A stretch of DNA of 64,000 nucleotides from Apostichopus japonicus (lineage: Eukaryota; Echinodermata; Holothuroidea; Aspidochirotida; Stichopodidae), in contig NC_092575.1 in assembly GCF_037975245.1 (NCBI RefSeq), positions 3,291,001 to 3,355,000 on the forward strand. The letters run 5' to 3'. The notes below the pieces were generated by a model that was not told the DNA's origin, made no database searches, and saw only the letters and a program-made list of their open reading frames with translations. This document shows positions 44,913 through 64,000 of this stretch, in pieces. A program made the translations under genes and the position numbers. Position 1 is the stretch's first letter. The number at the start of each line of letters is the position of its first letter.

Positions 44913-45617
44913 TTATTCTCTCCTTATTTTGTTATTCTTACCCGAATCTTGTTTAAATTTGCTTTCGTTAAAAGGGACCCATCCTAACAATTTAAAAGAA
45001 CCGAAAGCGAACCCTGCACACATTAAGGCTATAAGTACAAAGGGAGTCCTCTGAGCTCGGTCCTGCAGTTTCTTATATTCCTCCGCTCTCAACTGCCGGT
45101 ACTTTTTCTCTTCCTGATGTTTGTCTATATTCGCGCGGTACCGCTTCTTCAAGAATTCGTCTATCACGTTCTCGGTGTGGGCGCTCCTGAACGTGGCCGT
45201 GAACTGGTCGCCCATTTCCCGGGCCCTGGGCCCTGTCGGGGCAGTGGCCTCGGAGTGATGCCGCTGCTGACCCATCCTGTCTCTGTGGGTGAGGATACCC
45301 TGGTCGTACCTCCTCCTCAGCTTGCCGTTGCCGAGGACGCTGTAGGCGTCGTTGATCTTCGAGAACATCTCCTGGGAAGACTTGGAGCCTTTGTTTCGAT
45401 CGGGATGGTACTGCTTGGACAGTTTGTAGTACGCTGATTTGATTTGTGCTTGGGTTGCATTGTTTTGGAGTCCCAGGACTTGGTAAAGGTTAAATGTATA
45501 GTTCGTAGAGTATCCTCTCCGTGGTATATGACGGTTTGTGCGGGTGATTATGGGGAAGTGTGTTGTCTTCAGTCTCCACGATAAAGACCCCCATTGTGGT
45601 TTCTGTAGTTGCTGCAT
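44913..45617 (-). CDS. DNAJC30: DNAJC30-like mitochondrial J-domain protein
   Basis: Single coding exon, 234 residues (human DNAJC30 226). A basic, aromatic N-terminus resembles a mitochondrial presequence. The J domain spans about residues 43-107, with the HPD triad at 71-73 (KQYHPDRNKG) and a helix IV ending LRRRYDQG. Family-typical ATQAQIKSAYYKLSKQYHPD closely matches human DNAJC30. A charged linker precedes one transmembrane segment near residues 191-212 and a short polar tail. DNAJC30 acts at the inner mitochondrial membrane, associated with ATP synthase and complex I turnover (family knowledge). An acceptor-like CCCATTTTAG sits 10 bases before the ATG, so the 5' UTR is probably spliced and extends toward 46000-46900. 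Confidence 0.88.
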   Translation of the reverse strand: MQQLQKPQWGSLSWRLKTTHFPIITRTNRHIPRRGYSTNYTFNLYQVLGLQNNATQAQIKSAYYKLSKQYHPDRNKGSKSSQEMFSKINDAYSVLGNGKLRRRYDQGILTHRDRMGQQRHHSEATAPTGPRAREMGDQFTATFRSAHTENVIDEFLKKRYRANIDKHQEEKKYRQLRAEEYKKLQDRAQRTPFVLIALMCAGFAFGSFKLLGWVPFNESKFKQDSGKNNKIRRE

Positions 45618-50324: not shown

Positions 50325-50585
50325 AAGTCAACATGTCTATAACCAATCACCCAGTATGAAATGGTACATGTACCTACAATCATTCACCCAGGATGAAGTG
50401 GAATGTCTACAACCAATCACCCAGTACAAAATGGTACATGTCAACAACCAACCACCCAGTATGAAGTGCTACATGGCTACAACCAATCACCCAGCACAAA
50501 GTGCTACATACTGTATCTACAACTGACCACCCAGTACCATCAGTATGAAGTGGTACATGTCTATTACCAATCAACCATCATGAAA
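50325..50585. repeat. 35-bp minisatellite, left block
   Basis: About seven degenerate units built on ACATGTCTACAACCAATCAC followed by CCAGTATGAAGTGGT. The array is the same as at 53074-53420 and is interrupted by the LINE between. Confidence 0.9.
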
Positions 50586-53073
50586 TTATTATTATTATTA
50601 TTATTTATTGAATTTCATATAGCGCAACCCCAACAAAGTTTTCGGTTGCGCTTAACATCAAAATACAAAGATAGAAAAACCAATTATAAGAAAATAAGAT
50701 CTCAAATGGCGTAGAAAAATATACTAGATGAATGTACAAAAATATACAATTGCTATGAAATTCAAAGAGAAAAATAGAAAATGCAAAATGTTATATAAAA
50801 TGTAAAAGAGAAATTCAAAAATATGAAATATAAAGAATACAAAAATTGAAAAATTGAATATAAAAGTGATTAGCCAGGAAATAAATATGTTTTGAGTTTT
50901 CTTTTAAAAATTGCAAGATTCTCAGAATGTTTGACATGGTTAGGTAATTTATTCCATTGCTCGGCGCCAAATACACTTATTGCTCTTGAAGCAAAAGTGG
51001 CCCTCTGTGTTCGTGGAATGATCAGTTTATAAAGAATATTATTTGAACGTAGAGACCTACTAGATTGTGGTGCTAAAGTGAATCTAGATATAAGATATTG
51101 AGGAGCAGATTTATCAACAACGCATTTAAAGACCAGCGTTAATATTTTGTGCAGAATTCTTTGTCTGATGGGAAGCCAATGCAACTCCTTTAAAGCTTCA
51201 GAAGCACTATCCTCCTTTCCTCTTTTCAGAACAAGTTTGGCAGCCATGTTTTGAATTCTCTGAAGCATCATAATAACAACATTTGGTAGATTAGCATAGA
51301 GGGAGTTAGCATAATCTAAGTGACTTATCACTAGTCCTAAAACAATAGTATGGCAAGCATCCTTGGTTAGTAAATGTCTAATGTTTCTTACAAGTCGAAG
51401 TCCTGCCATGGCAGCTCTACATTTGGCAGCAATGTGAGTCTTCAACGTTAAATGAGAGTCCAGATATGCGCCTAAATATTTTACACAATTTGAACTAAAT
51501 ACGGTAGTGTTATTGATACAAATACTGTCTAAAGCACACTTAGATAATAATTTCTTCGATCCAACTTGTATATATTCAGTTTTAGTTTCGTTCAGTTTTA
51601 GTCTATTCTGGTCCATCCAAACTTTTACATCCCTCATAGTTGTTGAAATTTCATTTCTGACTGTGTTTGCCTCATCGAAGGTTGGTTTATGCGATTGTTT
51701 AATTGCATGATCATCCGCATAGCCATGTAATTGGAATGAATCCGGAATGACGTATCGCAATGTGCTTGCATATGCCGAGTACAAAACAGGTCCTAACAGA
51801 CTTCCTTGTGGGACACTGAAATCCAGTCTTTTGGAAGATGATAATGACCCATTGATATTTACACAACATTGTCTGTCAGAGAGATAATTTGCAAACCATT
51901 CTAAAGAAATTTTACCAAGCCCATATTCATTTCCTAGCACCTCCAATAACACTTTGTGGTCTACAGTATCAAACGCAGCCGAAAGGTCCATCAAGCACAT
52001 TTGTGTCACTTGCTGTTTCTCCATGGCCCATAACAAGTCGTCCAATAAGCTTACGAGAGCAGTCTCACAGCTGAAATTAGCTCGGTATGCAGACTGATAT
52101 GATGGAAGAGGAGCCGATGACTGAAAGTGCGAATTCAACTGTCCAAGTACCACTTTTTCGACTACTTTGGAAAGAATAGGGAGATTACTTACTGGTCTGT
52201 AGTTTGACAAATGTAAGCCCACGCCATGCTTTTTGATTAATGGTCGAATAATTGCTGTTTTCCATTCATTAGCAAACATACCATTTTCCAGAGAAAAATT
52301 TACAATCTTTGTAAGCGGGCTTATGACCACTCCCAAGACAGCCTTCAAGAGTGGTGTTGGTAAGATGTCAGATTGACATGTTTTTGATGACATACTGCTT
52401 ATAATACTAGCAAGTTCATCTTCTGTTACAATTGTAAAGGCAGTAAGATTTTGCGATATTTCTCTCATGGGCGGCTTGTAAAGTTCATTGTCATGAAGGT
52501 CGTTTCTTATACTTGTGATCTTTTGCAGAAAATAATCAGCAAAACTATTTGCAAGCGTATCATCATCTCGAAAGTCCGATGGCAATGGGTTATTAGCTTC
52601 TTGACCGGTGATTCTTTTAACCAGCGAGTAAAGGCGCTTTGTGTCTTTGCCGATTTCCTGAATTGAGTCGCTAATAACATTTTCTTTTGCAAACTTCAGC
52701 ATGGAAGAATATTTTGATTTTTCGTTTCTAAAAGATGTCCACGTTTCAGCAGATTTCCTTCTCTTCCAAATTTGCTCTTTGTTTCTCACCAATTGTTTTT
52801 GCTTTTTAAGTTCTGTTGTAAACCAAGGTTTCATTTTGCGTACACTAACGGCTTTAGTGATCAGTGGGGCATGATCGTCTAAGACAGACGTAAGATTTTC
52901 ATTGAAATTTGCTACATAATCATCAATATGTTCTACCGTGGGTGGGTTCTCTTTGAATCTGGTTTCGAGATCAGACGAAAAAGACTCTAAATCAATCGCT
53001 TTGAGTTTTCTAAAGGTGATTCTCTTTTGATGACGTTTGACTTGCTCCTTTAGATTTAAGGAAAATGCAATAA
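50586..53073 (-). mobile_element. 5'-truncated L2/CR1-type LINE with long open RT frame
   Basis: On the minus strand, one uninterrupted frame runs from the truncation at about 53073 to the stop at 50870, over 700 codons, with an internal ATG at 52834. It has RT motif A MDLSAAFDTVDH, motif B SVPQGSLLGPVLY, motif C GYADD, the thumb/connection word LHWLPIRQRI and the C-terminal AEQWNKLPNHVK typical of L2/CR1/Rex-like elements. The endonuclease half is missing. The 3' UTR carries a hairpin (AGCGCAACC ... GGTTGCGCT) and an (ATT)n-type tail on the plus strand at 50586-50610. An open frame of this length implies a fairly recent insertion. Confidence 0.92.
50870..52834 (-). CDS. LINE reverse transcriptase (within the L2/CR1-type element)
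   Basis: 654 codons from the internal ATG. The frame continues upstream without a stop to the truncation point, so the ATG is not the native start. It would prime reverse transcription at a nicked target. The catalytic aspartates of motif A (MDLSAAFD) and motif C (YADD) are present, but the copy cannot mobilise itself without the endonuclease. Confidence 0.9.
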   Translation of the reverse strand: MKPWFTTELKKQKQLVRNKEQIWKRRKSAETWTSFRNEKSKYSSMLKFAKENVISDSIQEIGKDTKRLYSLVKRITGQEANNPLPSDFRDDDTLANSFADYFLQKITSIRNDLHDNELYKPPMREISQNLTAFTIVTEDELASIISSMSSKTCQSDILPTPLLKAVLGVVISPLTKIVNFSLENGMFANEWKTAIIRPLIKKHGVGLHLSNYRPVSNLPILSKVVEKVVLGQLNSHFQSSAPLPSYQSAYRANFSCETALVSLLDDLLWAMEKQQVTQMCLMDLSAAFDTVDHKVLLEVLGNEYGLGKISLEWFANYLSDRQCCVNINGSLSSSKRLDFSVPQGSLLGPVLYSAYASTLRYVIPDSFQLHGYADDHAIKQSHKPTFDEANTVRNEISTTMRDVKVWMDQNRLKLNETKTEYIQVGSKKLLSKCALDSICINNTTVFSSNCVKYLGAYLDSHLTLKTHIAAKCRAAMAGLRLVRNIRHLLTKDACHTIVLGLVISHLDYANSLYANLPNVVIMMLQRIQNMAAKLVLKRGKEDSASEALKELHWLPIRQRILHKILTLVFKCVVDKSAPQYLISRFTLAPQSSRSLRSNNILYKLIIPRTQRATFASRAISVFGAEQWNKLPNHVKHSENLAIFKRKLKTYLFPG

Positions 53074-53420
53074 TGGTACATGTCTACAACCAATCACCCA
53101 GCATAAAGTGCTACATGTCTACAACCAATCACCCAGCATAAAGTGCTGCATGTCTACAACCAACCACCCAGTATGAAGTGCTACATGTCTACAACCAATC
53201 ACCCAGCACAAAGTGCTACATGTCTGCAACCAATCACCCAGCACAGAGTGCTTCATACCTACAACCAACCACACAGTATGAAGTGGTTCACGTCTACAAC
53301 CAACCACCCAGTATGATTTGGTACATGTACCTTCAATCAATCATCCAGCACGCAGTGGAATGTCTACAATAAATCACCCAGCATGAAGTGGTACATGTCT
53401 AAAACCAATCACCCATTTTG
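53074..53420. repeat. 35-bp minisatellite, right block
   Basis: About ten units of the array found at 50325-50585, resuming in phase (TGGTACATGTCTACAACC) after the LINE. Variation is mainly in the CAGTATGAAGTGGT half, with CAGCATAAAGTGCT as the alternative form. Confidence 0.9.
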
Positions 53421-56895: not shown

Positions 56896-57453
56896 TCTGC
56901 TTGACTGTTAACAGTTTAGGTTGCCTGCTGTATCGTTGCTACTGCTAGTAATATTTGAAGGTGCATCAACTACGAAGGTGCGTCAATTATGAAGCTTTTA
57001 CTGAACTAAAGTAGTAGTCTAAACTTAACCTTAGTCTAGACTAGGCATAGGCCTATACCAGTTAACGCACTAGCCCTAGCCTAAGTAACGGAAAGCCTAC
57101 TGAAGGCCTAGCTTACGTTTCCGGATGTCAACCCCGGGCCCTAGCCTAAAGCCATACAAGTTAAATGCTTAAGTATGCTCACCAACTGGGGGAGTTAAGG
57201 ATTGTTTTGCTTTCCAAAGTTGTCACCGACAACGATTCAATTTCACTAGATGATATCGCACGTGGGCTGTACCGCTGTTGTGAATTAGACACAGATTTCT
57301 GCATATGTCACTGTGTAAAGTACAAGCACTGCAAGTAACTGCAAGTCATTGAAGACTGATGTGAAGTAAGTTACTTATTCCGCGTTCCTCGTTCGACATT
57401 CGACGAATATGGCAAGCAATGTGGGGTCAAACGCTTATGGTAGGCCATACGGG

Positions 57454-58910
57454 TATGGTAGGCCATACGGGAAATAATTGCTGATTTAATGTCCGTACGA
57501 AATAAAATTATTACCGGTATTAATTCTATTTAATACCGGCATTAATTCTCAGCCAATCACCATGCAGCTTCATATGCCGGAATTAAATATAATTAATACG
57601 GGCATTAAATATAATTAATACGGACATTAAATAGAATTAATACGGGCATTAAATATAATTAATACGGGCATTAATAAAATTAATACGCGCATTAAATAGA
57701 ATTAATACGGGTATTAAATAGAATTAATACGGGTATTAAATAGAATTAATACGCGCATTAAATAGAATTAATACGGGCATTAAATAGACCAATCACATCA
57801 GCAGGATTCTCACTTGGTCATCTGATCTGATCGCCGCGCCAACCTACAACTTACATTCTTCGAAGAATAACAAGACGGTTCAAAGCATTGCGAACTGATA
57901 AAACATCGGACTGGGATTGAGGGTCAACATTTGTCAATAACCTACAAGTATCGTTCGCTTCTCGACGAAAATCATGCAAAAATTGTTCTTTGTCTGTCAT
58001 GCGTGCCATTGCGTTGTATGTTGTACCTTGATTGCTAGCTACAACTACACTGCTCTCACGCTGGGGGATTAACACTAGCTCAGACTGAGCATGGTAACAA
58101 AATTCGCTGATGTGATTGGTCTATTTAATACCCGTATTAATTCTATTTAATGCCCGTATTAATTCTATTTAATACCCGTATTAATTCTATTTAATACCCG
58201 TATTAATTCTATTTAATACCCGTATTTATTATATTTAATGCCCGTATTAATTTTATTTAATACTGGCATATGAAGCTGCATGGTGATTGGCTGAGAATTA
58301 ATGCCAGTATTAAATAGAATTAATACCGGTAATAATTTTAATTCGTACGGACATTAAATCAGCAATTATTTCCCGTATATGGTAGGCCATACCAGTTCGC
58401 AATGCTTTGAACCGTCTTGTTGTTCTTATTTGAAGAGCAAAATAGTGCGGTGAACGTAAGTTGTAGGTTGGCACGGCGATCAGATCAGATGAACAAGGGA
58501 GAATCCTGCTGATGTGATTGGTCTATTTAATACCCGTATTAATTCTATTTAATACCCGTATTAATTCTATTTAATACCCGTATTAATTCTATTTAATACC
58601 CGTATTAATTCTATTTAATACCCGTATTAATTCTATTTAATACCCATATTAATTCTATTTAATGCCCGCATTAATTCTATTTAATGCGCGTATTAATTCT
58701 ATTAATGCCCGTATTAATTCTACTTAATGCTGGTATTAAATACGTTTAATGGACCGCATAAATAAGCATCGAGATGCGCTCACTTGATTGGACGATTTAT
58801 GTGGTACATAATTCGTATTTATGTGGTACATAATTCGGATATATGTCGGACATAATTCAGCAATTATGTCGGACATAATTCAGCAATTATTTCCCATGCG
58901 GCCTACCATA
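57454..58910. mobile_element. Family A composite copy (A1 plus extra half, A3) inserted in A2
   Basis: Begins TATGGTAGGCCATACGGG at 57454 and ends GCGGCCTACCATA at 58910, flanked by TACGGG (57448-57453 and 58911-58916). It contains a complete palindromic element to about 58391 with its core in reverse orientation. This is followed by a second, more diverged partial core (58395-58520) and another right arm. The extra half implies an unequal exchange or nested event inside the family. Confidence 0.75.
57851..58009 (-). CDS. 52-residue frame in family A core (copy in A1)
   Basis: MARMTDKEQFLHDFRREAN starts the frame, which ends LNRLVILRRM. It is acidic-basic and probably helical. It is identical at nucleotide level to 59900-60058. 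The 3' end reads GAAT|GTAAGTTG, a strong donor, so it may be a captured first exon. No family is recognised, and it is unlike any transposase I know. Confidence 0.4.
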   Translation of the reverse strand: MARMTDKEQFLHDFRREANDTCRLLTNVDPQSQSDVLSVRNALNRLVILRRM

Positions 58911-58916
58911 TACGGG

Positions 58917-59552
58917 TATGGCAAGCCGTGTGGGACAAACACTGCATAATATATCCGCGTATTAATTGGAATTTATACGCGTATTAATTGGAATATATAC
59001 GCGTATATATTATTAGCCAATCATATGGCTTAAATATATCCGCGTATTAATTCGAATATATACACGGTTATGGCAAGCCATGTGGGACAAACACTGCATA
59101 ATATATCCGCGTATTAATACGAATATATACGCGTATTAATTGGAATATATACGCGTATATATTATTAGCCAATCAGAAGTCTTGAATATATCCGCGCATT
59201 AATTCGAATATATATACGTATTAATTTCAATATATATGAGGATTAATTCGAATATATACACGTATTAATTCGAATATATACACGTATTAAATCAAATATA
59301 TCCTCGCATTAATTCGAAAACATGTGGGGATTAAATCCAATATATGCACGGATTAATTAGAATATACACATTTCCGCTCTTGCTGTGTACATATACCAAC
59401 GATAAATGTTTGGCGGGCTCGCGAGATCGCTTCAAAAAGCGAAACTTTACACATGTAGGCTACAACACAAGTATATTCGAATTAATACGCGTATATATTC
59501 GAATTAATACGCGGATATATTATGCAGTGTTTGTCCCACATGGCTTGCCATA
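58917..59552. mobile_element. Fold-back family B copy B1
   Basis: TATGGCAAGCCGTGTGGGAC at the left, CACATGGCTTGCCATA at the right, flanked by TACGGG (58911-58916 and 59553-59558). It has a long left arm of 22-bp units (ATTAATTCGAATATATACAC plus GT), a core from about 59365 with GCTCTTGCTGTGTACATA and TTTGGCGGGCTCGCGAGATC, and a short right arm. 636 bases, no transposase. It reused the same TACGGG hexamer as the preceding insertion. Confidence 0.9.
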
Positions 59553-59899
59553 TACGGGAAATAATTGCTGATTTAATGTCCGTACGAATTAAAATTATTA
59601 CCGGTATTAATTCTATTTAATACCGGCATTAATTCTCAGCCAATCACCATGCAGCTTCATATGCCGGTATTAAATATAATTAATACGGGTATTAAATATA
59701 ATTAATACGGGTATTAAATAGAATTAATACGGGCATTAAATAGAATTTATACGGGCATTAAATAGAATTAATACGGGTATTAAATAGACCAATCACATCA
59801 GCGAATTTTGTTACCATGCTCAGTCTGAGCTAGTGTTAATCCCCCAGCGTGAGAGCAGTGTATAGTTGTAGCTAGCAATCAAGGTACAACATACAACGC

Positions 59900-60058
59900 A
59901 TGGCACGCATGACAGACAAAGAACAATTTTTGCATGATTTTCGTCGAGAAGCGAACGATACTTGTAGGTTATTGACAAATGTTGACCCTCAATCCCAGTC
60001 CGATGTTTTATCAGTTCGCAATGCTTTGAACCGTCTTGTTATTCTTCGAAGAATGTAA
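59900..60058 (+). CDS. 52-residue frame in family A core (copy in A2)
   Basis: Same frame and same nucleotides as 57851-58009. It lies between the 5' part of the core (AGCAATCAAGGTACAACATA) and the donor-like GTAAGT, 11 bases before the GGTTGGCGCG at which family B copy B2 is inserted. Function unknown. Confidence 0.4.
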   Translation: MARMTDKEQFLHDFRREANDTCRLLTNVDPQSQSDVLSVRNALNRLVILRRM

Positions 60059-60074
60059 GTTGTAGGTTGGCGCG

Positions 60075-61077
60075 TATGGTAAGCCATGTGGGACAAACAC
60101 CGCATAATATATCCGCGTATTAATTCGAATATATACGCGTATTAATTCGAATATACATGTGTTGTAGCCTACATGTGTAAAGTTTTTGAAGCGATCTCGC
60201 GTATGGCAAGCCATGTGGGACAAACACTGCATAATATATCCGCGTATTAATTGGAATTTATACGCGTATTAATTGGAATATATACGCGTATAAATTATTA
60301 GCCAATCATATGGCTTAAATATACCCGCGTATTAATTCGAATATATACATGGTATTTATTCGAATATATACGCGTATTAATTCGAATATATACACGTATT
60401 AATTTCGATTATATATACATATTAATTCGAATATATACACGTATTAATTCGAATATATACACGTATTAAATAAAATACATATGGGGATTAAATCCAATAT
60501 ATGCACGGATTAATTAGAATATACACATTTCCGCTCTTGCTGTGTACATATACCAACGATAAATGTTTGGCGGGCTCGCGAGATCGCTTCAAAAAGCGAA
60601 ACTTTACACATGTAGGCTACAACACATGTATATTCGAATTAATACGCGTATATATTCGAATTAATACGCGGATATATTATGCAGTGTTTGTCCCACATGG
60701 CTTGCCATACTCGCGAGCCCGCCAAAACATATATCGTTGGTATATGTACACAGCAAGAGCGGAAATGTTTTTTCGTGTATATTCTAATTAATCCGTGCAT
60801 ATATTGGATTTAATCCCCATATGTATTTTATTTAATACATGTATATATTCGAATTAATACGTGTATATACTCGAATTAATACGTGAATATATTCGAATTA
60901 ATACGTGTATATATTCGAATTAATACGTGTATATATATTAGAATTAATACGCGGATATATTTAAGCCATATGATTGGCTAATAATATATACGCCTATATA
61001 TTCCAATTAATACGCGTATAAATTCCAGTTAATACGCAGATATATTATGAAGTGTTTGTCCCACATGGCTTGCCATA
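60075..61077. mobile_element. Fold-back family B copy B2, inserted in the A2 core
   Basis: TATGGTAAGCCATGTGGGAC at the left, CACATGGCTTGCCATA at the right, flanked by GGCGCG (60069-60074 and 61078-61083). The A1 core keeps the unfilled sequence at 57835-57840 (complement strand). The element is in reverse orientation (short arm first) and is itself interrupted by B3. 1003 bases including B3. Confidence 0.92.
60202..60709. mobile_element. Fold-back family B copy B3, inserted in B2
   Basis: TATGGCAAGCCATGTGGGAC to CACATGGCTTGCCATA, flanked by CTCGCG (60196-60201 and 60710-60715). The unfilled target CTCGCGAG is seen in B1 at 59418-59425 and again in B0 and B3. 508 bases; the most deeply nested and so the youngest insertion on its branch. 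Confidence 0.92.
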
Positions 61078-61941
61078 GGCGCGGCGATCAGATCAGATGA
61101 CCAAGTGAGAATCCTGCTGATGTGATTGGTCTATTTAATGCCCGTATTAATTCTATTTAATGCGCGTATTAATTCTATTTAATACCCGTATTAATTCTAT
61201 TTAATGCCCGTATTAATTCTATTTAATGCGCGTATTAATTTTATTAATGCCCGTATTAATTCTATTTAATGCCCGTATTAATTCTATTTAATGCCCGTAT
61301 TAATTCTATTTAATACCCGTATTAATTCTATTTAATGCCCGTATTAATTCTATTTAATGTCCGTATTAATTATATTTAATGCCCGTATTAATTATATTTA
61401 ATACCGGCATATGAAGCTGCATGGTGATTGGCTGAGAATTAATGCCGGTATTAAATAGAATTAATACCGGTAATAATTTTATTTCGTACGGACATTAAAT
61501 CAGCAATTATTTCCCGTATGGCCTACCATAAACGCTGCACAATATATCCGCGTATTAATTGGAATTTATACGCGTATTAATTAGAATATATACGCGTATA
61601 TATTATTAGCCAATCATATGGCTTAAATATATCCGCGTATTAATTCGAATATATACACGTATTAATTCCAATATATACACGTATTAATTCGAATATATAC
61701 ACGTATTAATTCCAATATATACACGTATTAAATAAAATACATATGGGGATTAAATCCAATATATGCACGGATTAATTAGAATATACACGAAAAAAAAAAC
61801 ATTTCCGCTCTTGCTGTGTACATTTACCAAGGATAAATGTTTTGGTGGGCTCGCGAGATCGCTCCAAAAAGCGAAACTTTACACAGTCATGTACAACACA
61901 TGTATATTCGAATTAATACGCGTATATATTCGAATTAATAC

Positions 61942-62133: not shown

Positions 62134-64000
62134 ACCTCCGTGGGGTGTTGCAAATGTTCAGAGCCCCCAGTCCCAAGCCCCCCCACGGTATGGTACTCAT
62201 CCTTCATGAACACCTAGCTGGTACATACGAAATTTGGGTCAGGACTTAGTTTGGGTCAAATCCCTATTTTCCTTGGCGCACGGGGCCCGGAACACATGCC
62301 AGATATGCCAATTTTGTTTTTGCCTTAGAAAAAAAAATGAAACAGCTCCCATTGACTTTGTGTTAGCTCCGTGGGGTGTTGCAAATGTTCAGAGCCCCCA
62401 GTCCCAAGCCCCCCACGGTATGGTACTCATCCTTCATGAACACCTAGCTGGTACATACGAAATTTGGGTCAGGACTTAGTTTGGGTCAAATCCCTATTTT
62501 CCTTGGCGCACGGGGCCCGGAACACATGCCAGATATGCCAATTTTGTTTTTGCCTTAGAAAAAACATGAAACAGCTCCCATTGACTTTGTGTTAGCTCCG
62601 TGGGGTGTTGCAAATGTTCAAAGCCCCCAGTCCCAAGCCCCCCACGGTATGGTACTCAAACTTCATGAACACCTAGCTGGTACATACGAAATTTGGGTCA
62701 GGACTTAGTTTGGGTCAAATCCCTATTTTCCTCGGCGCACGGGGCCCGGAACACATGCCAGATATGCCAATTTTGTTTTGGACTTAAAAAAAACATGAAA
62801 CAGCTCCCATTGACTTTGTGTTAGCTCCGTGGGGTGTTGCAAATGTTCAGAGCCCCCAGTCCCAAGCCCCCCACGGTATGGAACTCATCCTTCATGAACA
62901 CCTAGCTGGTACATACGAAATTTGGGTCAGGACTTAGTTTGGGTCAAATCCCTATTTTCCTCGGCGCACGGGGCCCGGAACACATGCCAGATATGCCAAT
63001 TTTGTTTTTGCCTTAGAAAAAACATGAAACAGCTCCCATTGACTTTGTGTTAGCTCCGTGGGGTGTTGCAAATGTTCAAAGCCCCCAGTCCCAAGCCCCC
63101 CACGGTATGGTACTCAAACTTCATGAACACCTAGCTGGTACATACGAAATTTGGGTCAGGACTTAGTTTGGGTCAAATCCCTATTTTCCTCGGCGCACGG
63201 GGCCCGGAACACATGCCAGATATGCCAATTTTGTTTTGGACTTAAAAAAAACATGAAACAGCTCCCATTGACTTTGTGTTAGCTCCGTGGGGTGTTGCAA
63301 ATGTTCAGAGCCCCCAGTCCCAAGCCCCCCACGGTATGGTACTCATCCTTCATGAACACCTAGCTGGTACATACGAAATTTGGGTCAGGACTTAGTTTGG
63401 GTCAAATCCCTATTTTCCTTGGCGCACGGGGCCCGGAGCACATGCCAGATATGCCAATTTTGTTTTGGACTTAGAAAAAAAATGAAACAGCTCCCATTGA
63501 CTTTGTGTTAGCTCCGTGGGGTGTTGCAAATGTTCAGAGCCCCCAGTCCCAAGCCCCCCCCCCACGGTATGGTACTCATCCTTCATGAACACCTAGCTGG
63601 TACATACGAAATTTGGGTCAGGACTTAGTTTGGGTCAAATCCCTATTTTCCTCGGCGCACGGGGCCCGGAACACATGCCAGATATGCCAATTTTGTTTTT
63701 GCCTTAGAAAAAACATGAAACAGCTCCCATTGACTTTGTGTTAGCTCCGTGGGGTGTTGCAAATGTTCAAAGCCCCCAGTCCCAAGCCCCCCACGGTATG
63801 GTACTCAAACTTCATGAACACCTAGCTGGTACATACGAAATTTGGGTCAGGACTTAGTTTGGGTCAAATCCCTATTTTCCTCGGCGCACGGGGCCCGGAA
63901 CACATGCCAGATATGCCAATTTTGTTTTTGACTTAAAAAAAACATGAAACAGCTCCCATTGACTTTGTGTTAGCTCCGTGGGGTGTTGCAAATGTTCAGA
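62134..64000. repeat. 229-bp satellite array, more than 8 copies, runs off the window
   Basis: Unit starts at 62141, 62372, 62601, 62830, 63059, 63288, 63517, 63750 and 63979, so the period is 229 with two length variants. Each unit contains TGGGGTGTTGCAAATGTTCA, GGCGCACGGGGCCCGGA and CAGCTCCCATTGACTTTGTG. Two versions alternate in part of the array: one with TCAGAG and CTCATCC, the other with TCAAAG and CTCAAAC. Open frames inside are an effect of the repeat. Confidence 0.97.

Follow-up and report, generated by a model that had tools for sequence, protein, structure and literature searches.

Nested fold-back-like elements in the sea cucumber Apostichopus japonicus are probably cut-down IS3EU transposons related to 18-22 kb two-gene elements

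In a window of 64,000 nt from the genome of the sea cucumber Apostichopus japonicus (the window being the whole stretch of DNA that was analyzed, C15:3291001-3355000 of a host assembly of 671.6 Mb), we studied a nest of at least six short transposon pieces, of types A and B, that are stacked within one another. Two kinds of described systems come closest to them. Fold-back elements (FB, Galileo and Tetris in Drosophila, and TU in sea urchins) share inverted arms of tandem units and mostly lack coding capacity. According to an earlier note on this DNA, TU elements are reported with an 8-bp target duplication, compared with 6 bp in all five insertions in the window. In the tandem units of Galileo, extra transposase sites have been reported, and Tetris is described with 8-10 bp duplications and units of ~220 bp (PMC4079207), as opposed to the 6-bp duplications, 21-22-bp units and identified transposase family found here. 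The second system is the IS3EU superfamily, which in general has TA..TA ends and usually 6-bp duplications (PMC10045372). For fungal IS3EU elements, 6-bp duplications and the ends TAYGG..CCRTA are described, as well as, in the TET-bearing families, an alpha-kinase gene opposite the transposase gene (PMC12730594). In IS481EU of parabasalids, the duplications are about 4, 15 or 25 bp long, and the ends in T. vaginalis are TNT..AYA (PMC10045372). Thus, IS481EU differs from the elements described here in duplications and ends, whereas its transposase core, like that of bacterial IS481 and IS3, is similar.

We conclude, with a probability of roughly 0.88, that A and B are internally deleted, non-autonomous cut-and-paste DNA transposons of the IS3EU type. 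This assignment is backed by the ends, the exact 6-bp duplications, the empty site obtained by excising the inserts of A2, a relic of a transposase exon in A, and the existence of coding relatives; transposition itself is what we infer from them. The earlier note, which listed IS3EU for comparison, could not name a family for these ends and this duplication length. Both features fit IS3EU as described in PMC10045372 and PMC12730594.

The nest and its insertion history

The five nested insertions, A2, A1/A3, B1, B2 and B3, all begin with TATGG, finish with CCATA and are flanked by exact 6-bp duplications. Their coordinates, tips and repeats as listed in the earlier note held when they were re-read in the sequence, and so did the ends of every inserted copy and the fold-back-like arms of tandem units. 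The features are as follows (positions in the window).

57408-57435, plus strand: left piece of B0, with left tip TATGGCAAGCAATGTGGG and left flank GACGAA
57430-57435, plus strand: left copy of the A2 target duplication, AACGCT
57436-61530, plus strand: A2 with the nested insertions, 981 bp once the inserts are removed
57448-57453, plus strand: TACGGG in the left tip of A2, the target of A1/A3 and B1
57454-58910, no strand assigned: A1/A3 composite, consisting of an inverted near-complete A (57454 to about 58377) and a truncated direct A (58378-58910)
57855-58009, minus strand: transposase exon 1 of the A1 copy, which begins with the start codon at 58009 and runs into GTAAGT
58911-58916, plus strand: TACGGG, shared by A1/A3 as its right and by B1 as its left duplicate
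58917-59552, plus strand: B1, in which 152 bp of the left end are tandemly duplicated (TRF array 58908-59218)
59553-59558, plus strand: right duplicate of B1, TACGGG
59900-60054, plus strand: transposase exon 1 of A2, frame starting MARMTDKEQFLHDFRREANDTCRLLTNV
60055-60060, plus strand: GTAAGT, the presumed splice donor after exon 1 (splicing deduced from the sequence)
60069-60074, plus strand: left duplicate of B2, GGCGCG
60075-61077, minus strand: B2 holding B3, 489 bp without B3
60196-60201, plus strand: left duplicate of B3, CTCGCG
60202-60709, plus strand: B3, an undisturbed B element of 508 bp
60710-60715, plus strand: right duplicate of B3, CTCGCG
61078-61083, plus strand: right duplicate of B2, GGCGCG
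61130-61402, plus strand: 22-bp tandem array in the right arm of A2, 12.5 units
61531-61536, plus strand: right duplicate of A2, AACGCT
61537-61941, plus strand: right piece of B0, right tip missing

A1/A3 and B1 both used the TACGGG site inside A2's own left tip, so that either of them may have been inserted first. A1/A3 is a composite of two A copies in opposite orientations with one shared pair of outer ends, and no clean duplication was seen at its inner junction (58378). B0 kept its left tip and lost its right tip near position 61941. The alignment places B2 in reverse orientation relative to B3, and nine B-type pairs, among ten A/B pairs measured, span 379-476 bp. The inverted arms of A2 are near-identical (97% over 248 bp).

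When A1/A3, B1 and B2 were cut out of A2 together with one duplicate of each target, the remaining 981 bp aligned tip to tip with two undisturbed A copies of 979 bp each, L082 on C5 (99.7%) and L083 on C16 (99.3%), both of which have TACGTG on both flanks; each alignment contains two gap positions. A2 is therefore a true insertion stack, and a recent one given the 99% identity. Together with the five exact duplications, this result upholds the stacked history proposed in the earlier note. Long inverted repeats are hard to assemble, and the untidy inner junction of A1/A3 could point to an assembly artefact of collapsed palindromes. However, such an artefact would have to account for five exact duplications and for an empty site that is more than 99% identical to two independent genomic copies, in an assembly of only 35 contigs for 671.6 Mb, and we consider it scarcely credible. 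The nest is real.

Elements with such tips are widespread in the host genome, where the tip motif TATGGYARGCCATRYGGG occurs 470 + 446 times, compared with 0 occurrences for a reversed-pattern control. Twelve of 18 A-type pairs picked by eye measure 959-1084 bp, and the remainder 568-826 or 1361-1859 bp. Two loci on C1 have a more complex organization. At L010 (C1:1251161-1313371), the A tip recurs mostly about every 7.65 kb beside a gene-like 277-aa frame that appears sulfotransferase-like by eye; probably, a local tandem duplication carried an A insertion along. L009 (C1:20279812-20287915) is an 8.1-kb stretch with B tips, the duplication CCCGTA on both sides and frames that look retroelement-like by eye, and is probably a B element that was later hit by a retroelement insertion.

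Full-length relatives and their two genes

Scoring of 150 out of 224 candidates gave at least 143 genomic matches to the Pfam profile rva_4 (PF24764, integrase core), which merge into 84 loci. By following some of these matches outward, both ends were identified for five copies.

C17:3915727-3938103: 22,377 bp, flanks TGCGGG
C16:42948954-42970872: 21,919 bp, flanks GCCGTA
C3:14225777-14244133: 18,357 bp, flanks GCCGTC
C6:9733116-9751790: 18,675 bp, flanks ATAGTA
C12:10474482-10492955: 18,474 bp, flanks GACGAC

In every copy the ends are TATGG..CCATA and the two 6-bp flanks are identical, with the proviso that the C12 copy lies within a GAC repeat, so that its flank match is weak evidence. Each contains an rva_4 match and a match to a HECT ubiquitin ligase, which are convergent by their coordinates. 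The C17 copy, the one obtained in full (as pieces L040, L038, L042 and L041), carries a left gene with an HTH-like exon (PF13384, E 1.6e-4, below the cut-off) and rva_4 (E 8.7e-74; 9.4e-73 in the C3 copy) and a right gene with a HECT domain (E 8.2e-6, above the cut-off). Its longest open frames comprise 491 aa (HECT) and 262 aa (rva_4), and none of ten further frames scanned has a Pfam match at E 0.01. Between the two genes of this element lies a 397-bp repeat in 5.6 copies (L042:553-2755). Likewise, a 161-bp array lies between the two genes of L029/L034, an element of a sister family, D. Within the pieces examined, no right end could be located for the D-type elements L029 and L031.

In six of six transposase frames, from six loci, the second D and the E of the presumed catalytic triad are invariant, with a spacing of 34 residues in five frames, the exception being the C20 frame with 40. 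An exon or frame farther upstream carries the presumed first D (H-x-D-G), which is present in the four loci where that part was read (L030, L032, L037 and L038). Among bacterial profiles, IS481 (E 1.4e-7) and IS3 (E 0.025) come nearest; neither reaches its cut-off, nor does the match to PF00665. IS481 and IS3 are the closest profiles expected of the IS3EU lineage according to PMC10045372. No HHCC pattern was found upstream of the core in any of four loci among plus-strand frames of at least 40 aa, a search that an intron-split motif could escape. Neither the HECT frame nor the C20 transposase had a match among solved structures at E values up to 1, and a search with an alignment returned only HTLV-2 integrase (E 0.22) and two interferon-gamma entries (E 0.6). 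The C20 locus, L030 (C20:27729937-27731074), is a divergent rva_4 copy with a 431-aa frame and, on its 5' side, a 105-bp array replacing the 22-bp units. As to their genomic distribution, 59 of the 143 rva_4 matches are on C17, and 55 of these lie in C17:15-27.5 Mb (34 of the 84 merged loci), a graveyard or refuge of these transposons in which recombination is perhaps low.

The coding content also bears on other superfamilies. Polinton/Maverick elements are large, make 6-bp duplications and encode an rve-type integrase as well as PolB and capsid genes. Size, duplication length and type of integrase are thus alike, but the elements described here have TATGG ends, and the C17 copy contains no PolB-sized frame. 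Duplications of about 6 bp are possible for Dada and Polinton as well as for hAT6 (the latter from the reference list of PMC12730594), so that A and B might belong to one of these groups and have TA ends by chance. However, the full-length relatives encode rva_4/IS481-like transposases, no hAT, Dada or Merlin transposase was found in those tested, and the ten further frames of the C17 copy lack Pfam matches. Membership in Dada, hAT6 or Polinton therefore has hardly any probability.

With the HECT frame of the C17 copy, 36 matches were obtained in the genome, which merge into 30 loci. Twenty of these have an rva_4 match no more than 12 kb away, in each case in convergent orientation, and the other ten have no rva_4 match within that distance. 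Among the paired loci, the identity of the HECT sequences between families is 25-40%, and the partnership of transposase and HECT protein must therefore be old. A TC motif near the C terminus, which we take to hold the catalytic cysteine, is kept in all three HECT frames inspected. The two-gene layout is similar to that of the fungal TET-bearing IS3EU families, with an alpha-kinase as the partner there and a HECT protein here.

The short elements are linked to these full-length elements by coding and by non-coding sequences. The A2 frame at 59900 runs into GTAAGT, and the peptide of this exon 1, compared with loci of more than 500 bp, best matches the beginning of the transposase gene of the C17 copy, with M1 aligned to M1 (47% in 47 columns, E 4.4e-8; next-best match, E 0.25). 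The same peptide is encoded in A2, A1, L082 and L083, whereas none of the other loci compared, several of which have A tips, yielded it. The right arm of A2 aligns with the right arm of the C17 copy inward from the last base (63% over 307 bp), and a CCAAT box is located 100 bp from the tip in the left arm of A1, the right arm of A2 and both C17 arms, and 101 bp from it in B3.

The arms of A, B and the C17 element have a 22-bp period (same-base fraction of 0.49-0.72 at lag 22). Elsewhere, the period is 21 bp (two D-type elements), 42 bp (C3 array, 104 bases tested) or 105 bp (C20 array). Perfect palindromes were considered as a general unit of the arms and rejected, since only two of ten arrays tested, both of the D family, exceeded the maximum of 200 shuffles (14 and 15 palindromes vs. 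shuffle maxima of 8 and 11). The A arrays contain fewer than the shuffles (1 palindrome vs. means of 6.6 and 8.2), and the arrays of B, the 22-kb element, C3 and C20 are inside the shuffle range. Therefore, we claim only a 21-22-bp period. With two helix turns per unit, it suggests repeated binding on one face of the DNA.

Inverted arms of tandem units are thus present, and the resemblance to TU and FB elements that the earlier note had pointed out is correct with respect to architecture only. If A and B were fold-backs of the TU/FB type, moved by ectopic recombination or by an unrelated transposase, the tandem 22-bp units and the near-identical inverted arms of A2 would be expected, and the likeness of their tips to those of the rva_4 elements would be convergent. 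However, A holds exon 1 of the rva_4 transposase, which refutes this explanation for A unless the match is fortuitous, and the tips, the CCAAT position and the CpG-centered 6-bp duplications described below are common to A/B and the rva_4 elements. We regard a TU/FB-type origin as very improbable.

Target sites

The targets of the A/B elements are mostly centered on a CpG. Genome-wide, positions 3-4 of the duplication are CG at 704 of 916 A/B tips, compared with a background CG frequency of 2.35% (loci over 3 kb and the window), and a pyrimidine-purine step is found at these positions in 819. Of 55 tips from the window and other loci that are distinct by flank and tip (a few are from one tandem array), 48 have CG at positions 3-4, with counts of 0 to 5 at every one of twelve other offsets. 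The majority bases of these targets are YACGTR. The D family, with tips TATGGNAAGCCRTTTTAACATTTA (1,175 genome occurrences at up to one mismatch), has a different register. For the first 100 exact tips listed, CG is at positions 5-6 in 64 and at positions 3-4 in 5. A set of 13 distinct D tips includes 12 with CG at positions 5-6, 9 with CG at positions 1-2 and 3 with CG at positions 3-4. The D-family target is thus for the most part CGNNCG. Two D-type tips adjoining a transposase gene fit it more poorly (CGCACA at L031 and GGTTCG at L033), and the duplication is exact in two of the first six D pairs.

Several insertions lie inside CpG-bearing arrays of other copies, and the CpG signal could therefore be a by-product of insertion into CpG-rich DNA, be it other copies or islands. 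CpG-rich surroundings, however, do not explain why the signal of the 55 tips is confined to one register, or why it shifts to CGNNCG in the D family of the same genome. The by-product explanation is thus highly unlikely.

No report of a CpG-centered target or a HECT partner for IS3EU was found in the literature searched, a scope that excluded subscription papers and Repbase Reports; nor were the length of 18-22 kb and arms of 21-22-bp arrays met there. Tentatively, and at somewhat less than even odds, the elements may represent a giant two-gene IS3EU lineage, in which the transposase would read the CpG directly, the register would switch between families (YACGTR vs. CGNNCG) with the same 6-bp stagger, insertion could be methylation-sensitive, and a long-conserved convergent HECT partner would tune the transposase level or disarm host restraint.

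Some further features of the window lie outside the nest. A 229-bp satellite (about 8 copies, 96% match) extends from just past the nest to the end of the window (62136-64000). At 50331-53415, a reverse-transcriptase frame (50870-52834, minus strand, PF00078) is flanked on either side by an array of a related 35-bp repeat. A minus-strand open frame with a DnaJ domain (PF00226) is found at 44913-45617.

Assignment, mechanism and significance

With IS3EU, the elements share the TA..TA ends (TATGG..CCATA in A and B of the window and in the five full-length copies), the 6-bp duplications (five of five window insertions and five of five full-length copies, one of them in the GAC repeat), a DDE integrase-like, IS3/IS481-related transposase with no HHCC pattern seen, and, as in the fungal TET families, a second gene opposite the transposase. 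They differ in the HECT partner, the length of 18-22 kb, the 21-22-bp array arms and the CpG-keyed target.

Several observations weigh against this assignment. It is based on published descriptions and profiles rather than on the IS3EU proteins of Repbase. B contains no exon and is linked by its tips, target, duplication length and arm period. The transposase-bearing relatives that the earlier note had proposed to search for exist and have the same kind of ends and 6-bp duplications, but not an identical 18-bp A or B tip: among the tips listed, no full-length copy has an exact A or B tip, and A tips share at best 14, and B1 15, of 18 bases with full-length tips. In the C3 copy, the CCAAT box stands 115 bp away from the tip, and two D-type elements lack it at that position. 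The 6-bp duplication is exact in six of the first ten A/B pairs and has at most one mismatch in seven. Finally, 97 of the 916 A/B tips lack a pyrimidine-purine step at positions 3-4, and non-CpG targets occur, namely ATAGTA of the 18-kb copy on C6 and CACTTT of the B-type L027.

Transposase genes beside the short elements were also considered. Twenty stretches of 9-10 kb beside A/B tips on C1 and C2, L009 among them, contain no rva_4 match. One of 73 A tips lies within 25 kb of an rva_4 match, at a distance of 2.4 kb outside the C16 copy. For the first 100 of 155 B tips there are two within 25 kb, which represent one short B pair on C13. Among the tips listed, none of these three belongs to a full-length element.

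For A and B as non-autonomous IS3EU-type transposons, the following mechanism can be proposed. Full-length elements would supply the rva_4 transposase in trans, which would bind the tips and/or the 21-22-bp arm repeats and excise the short copies. Both 3' ends would then be joined to the target 6 bp apart, around a presumably flexible CpG step (YACGTR), and gap repair of the 6-bp stagger would produce the duplication. The stacking of the elements would follow from the CpG targets that their own tips and arrays offer; in the nest, the TACGGG of the A tip received two insertions and the CTCGCG of B2 one. The HECT protein probably has an accessory role, acting either on the transposase or on a protein of the host.

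Descriptions of the eukaryotic superfamily IS3EU are sparse, and this genome offers recently moved copies, exact full-length structures, a recurrent HECT partner and two sister families that differ in their CpG-based targets. Thus, tests become possible of how a transposase of the integrase type recognizes a dinucleotide at the center of its 6-bp stagger, whether a methylated CpG blocks or attracts insertion, and why a DNA transposon should carry a ubiquitin-ligase gene. The nest provides a clean worked example of fold-back-like elements that turn out to be reduced members of a superfamily with coding capacity.

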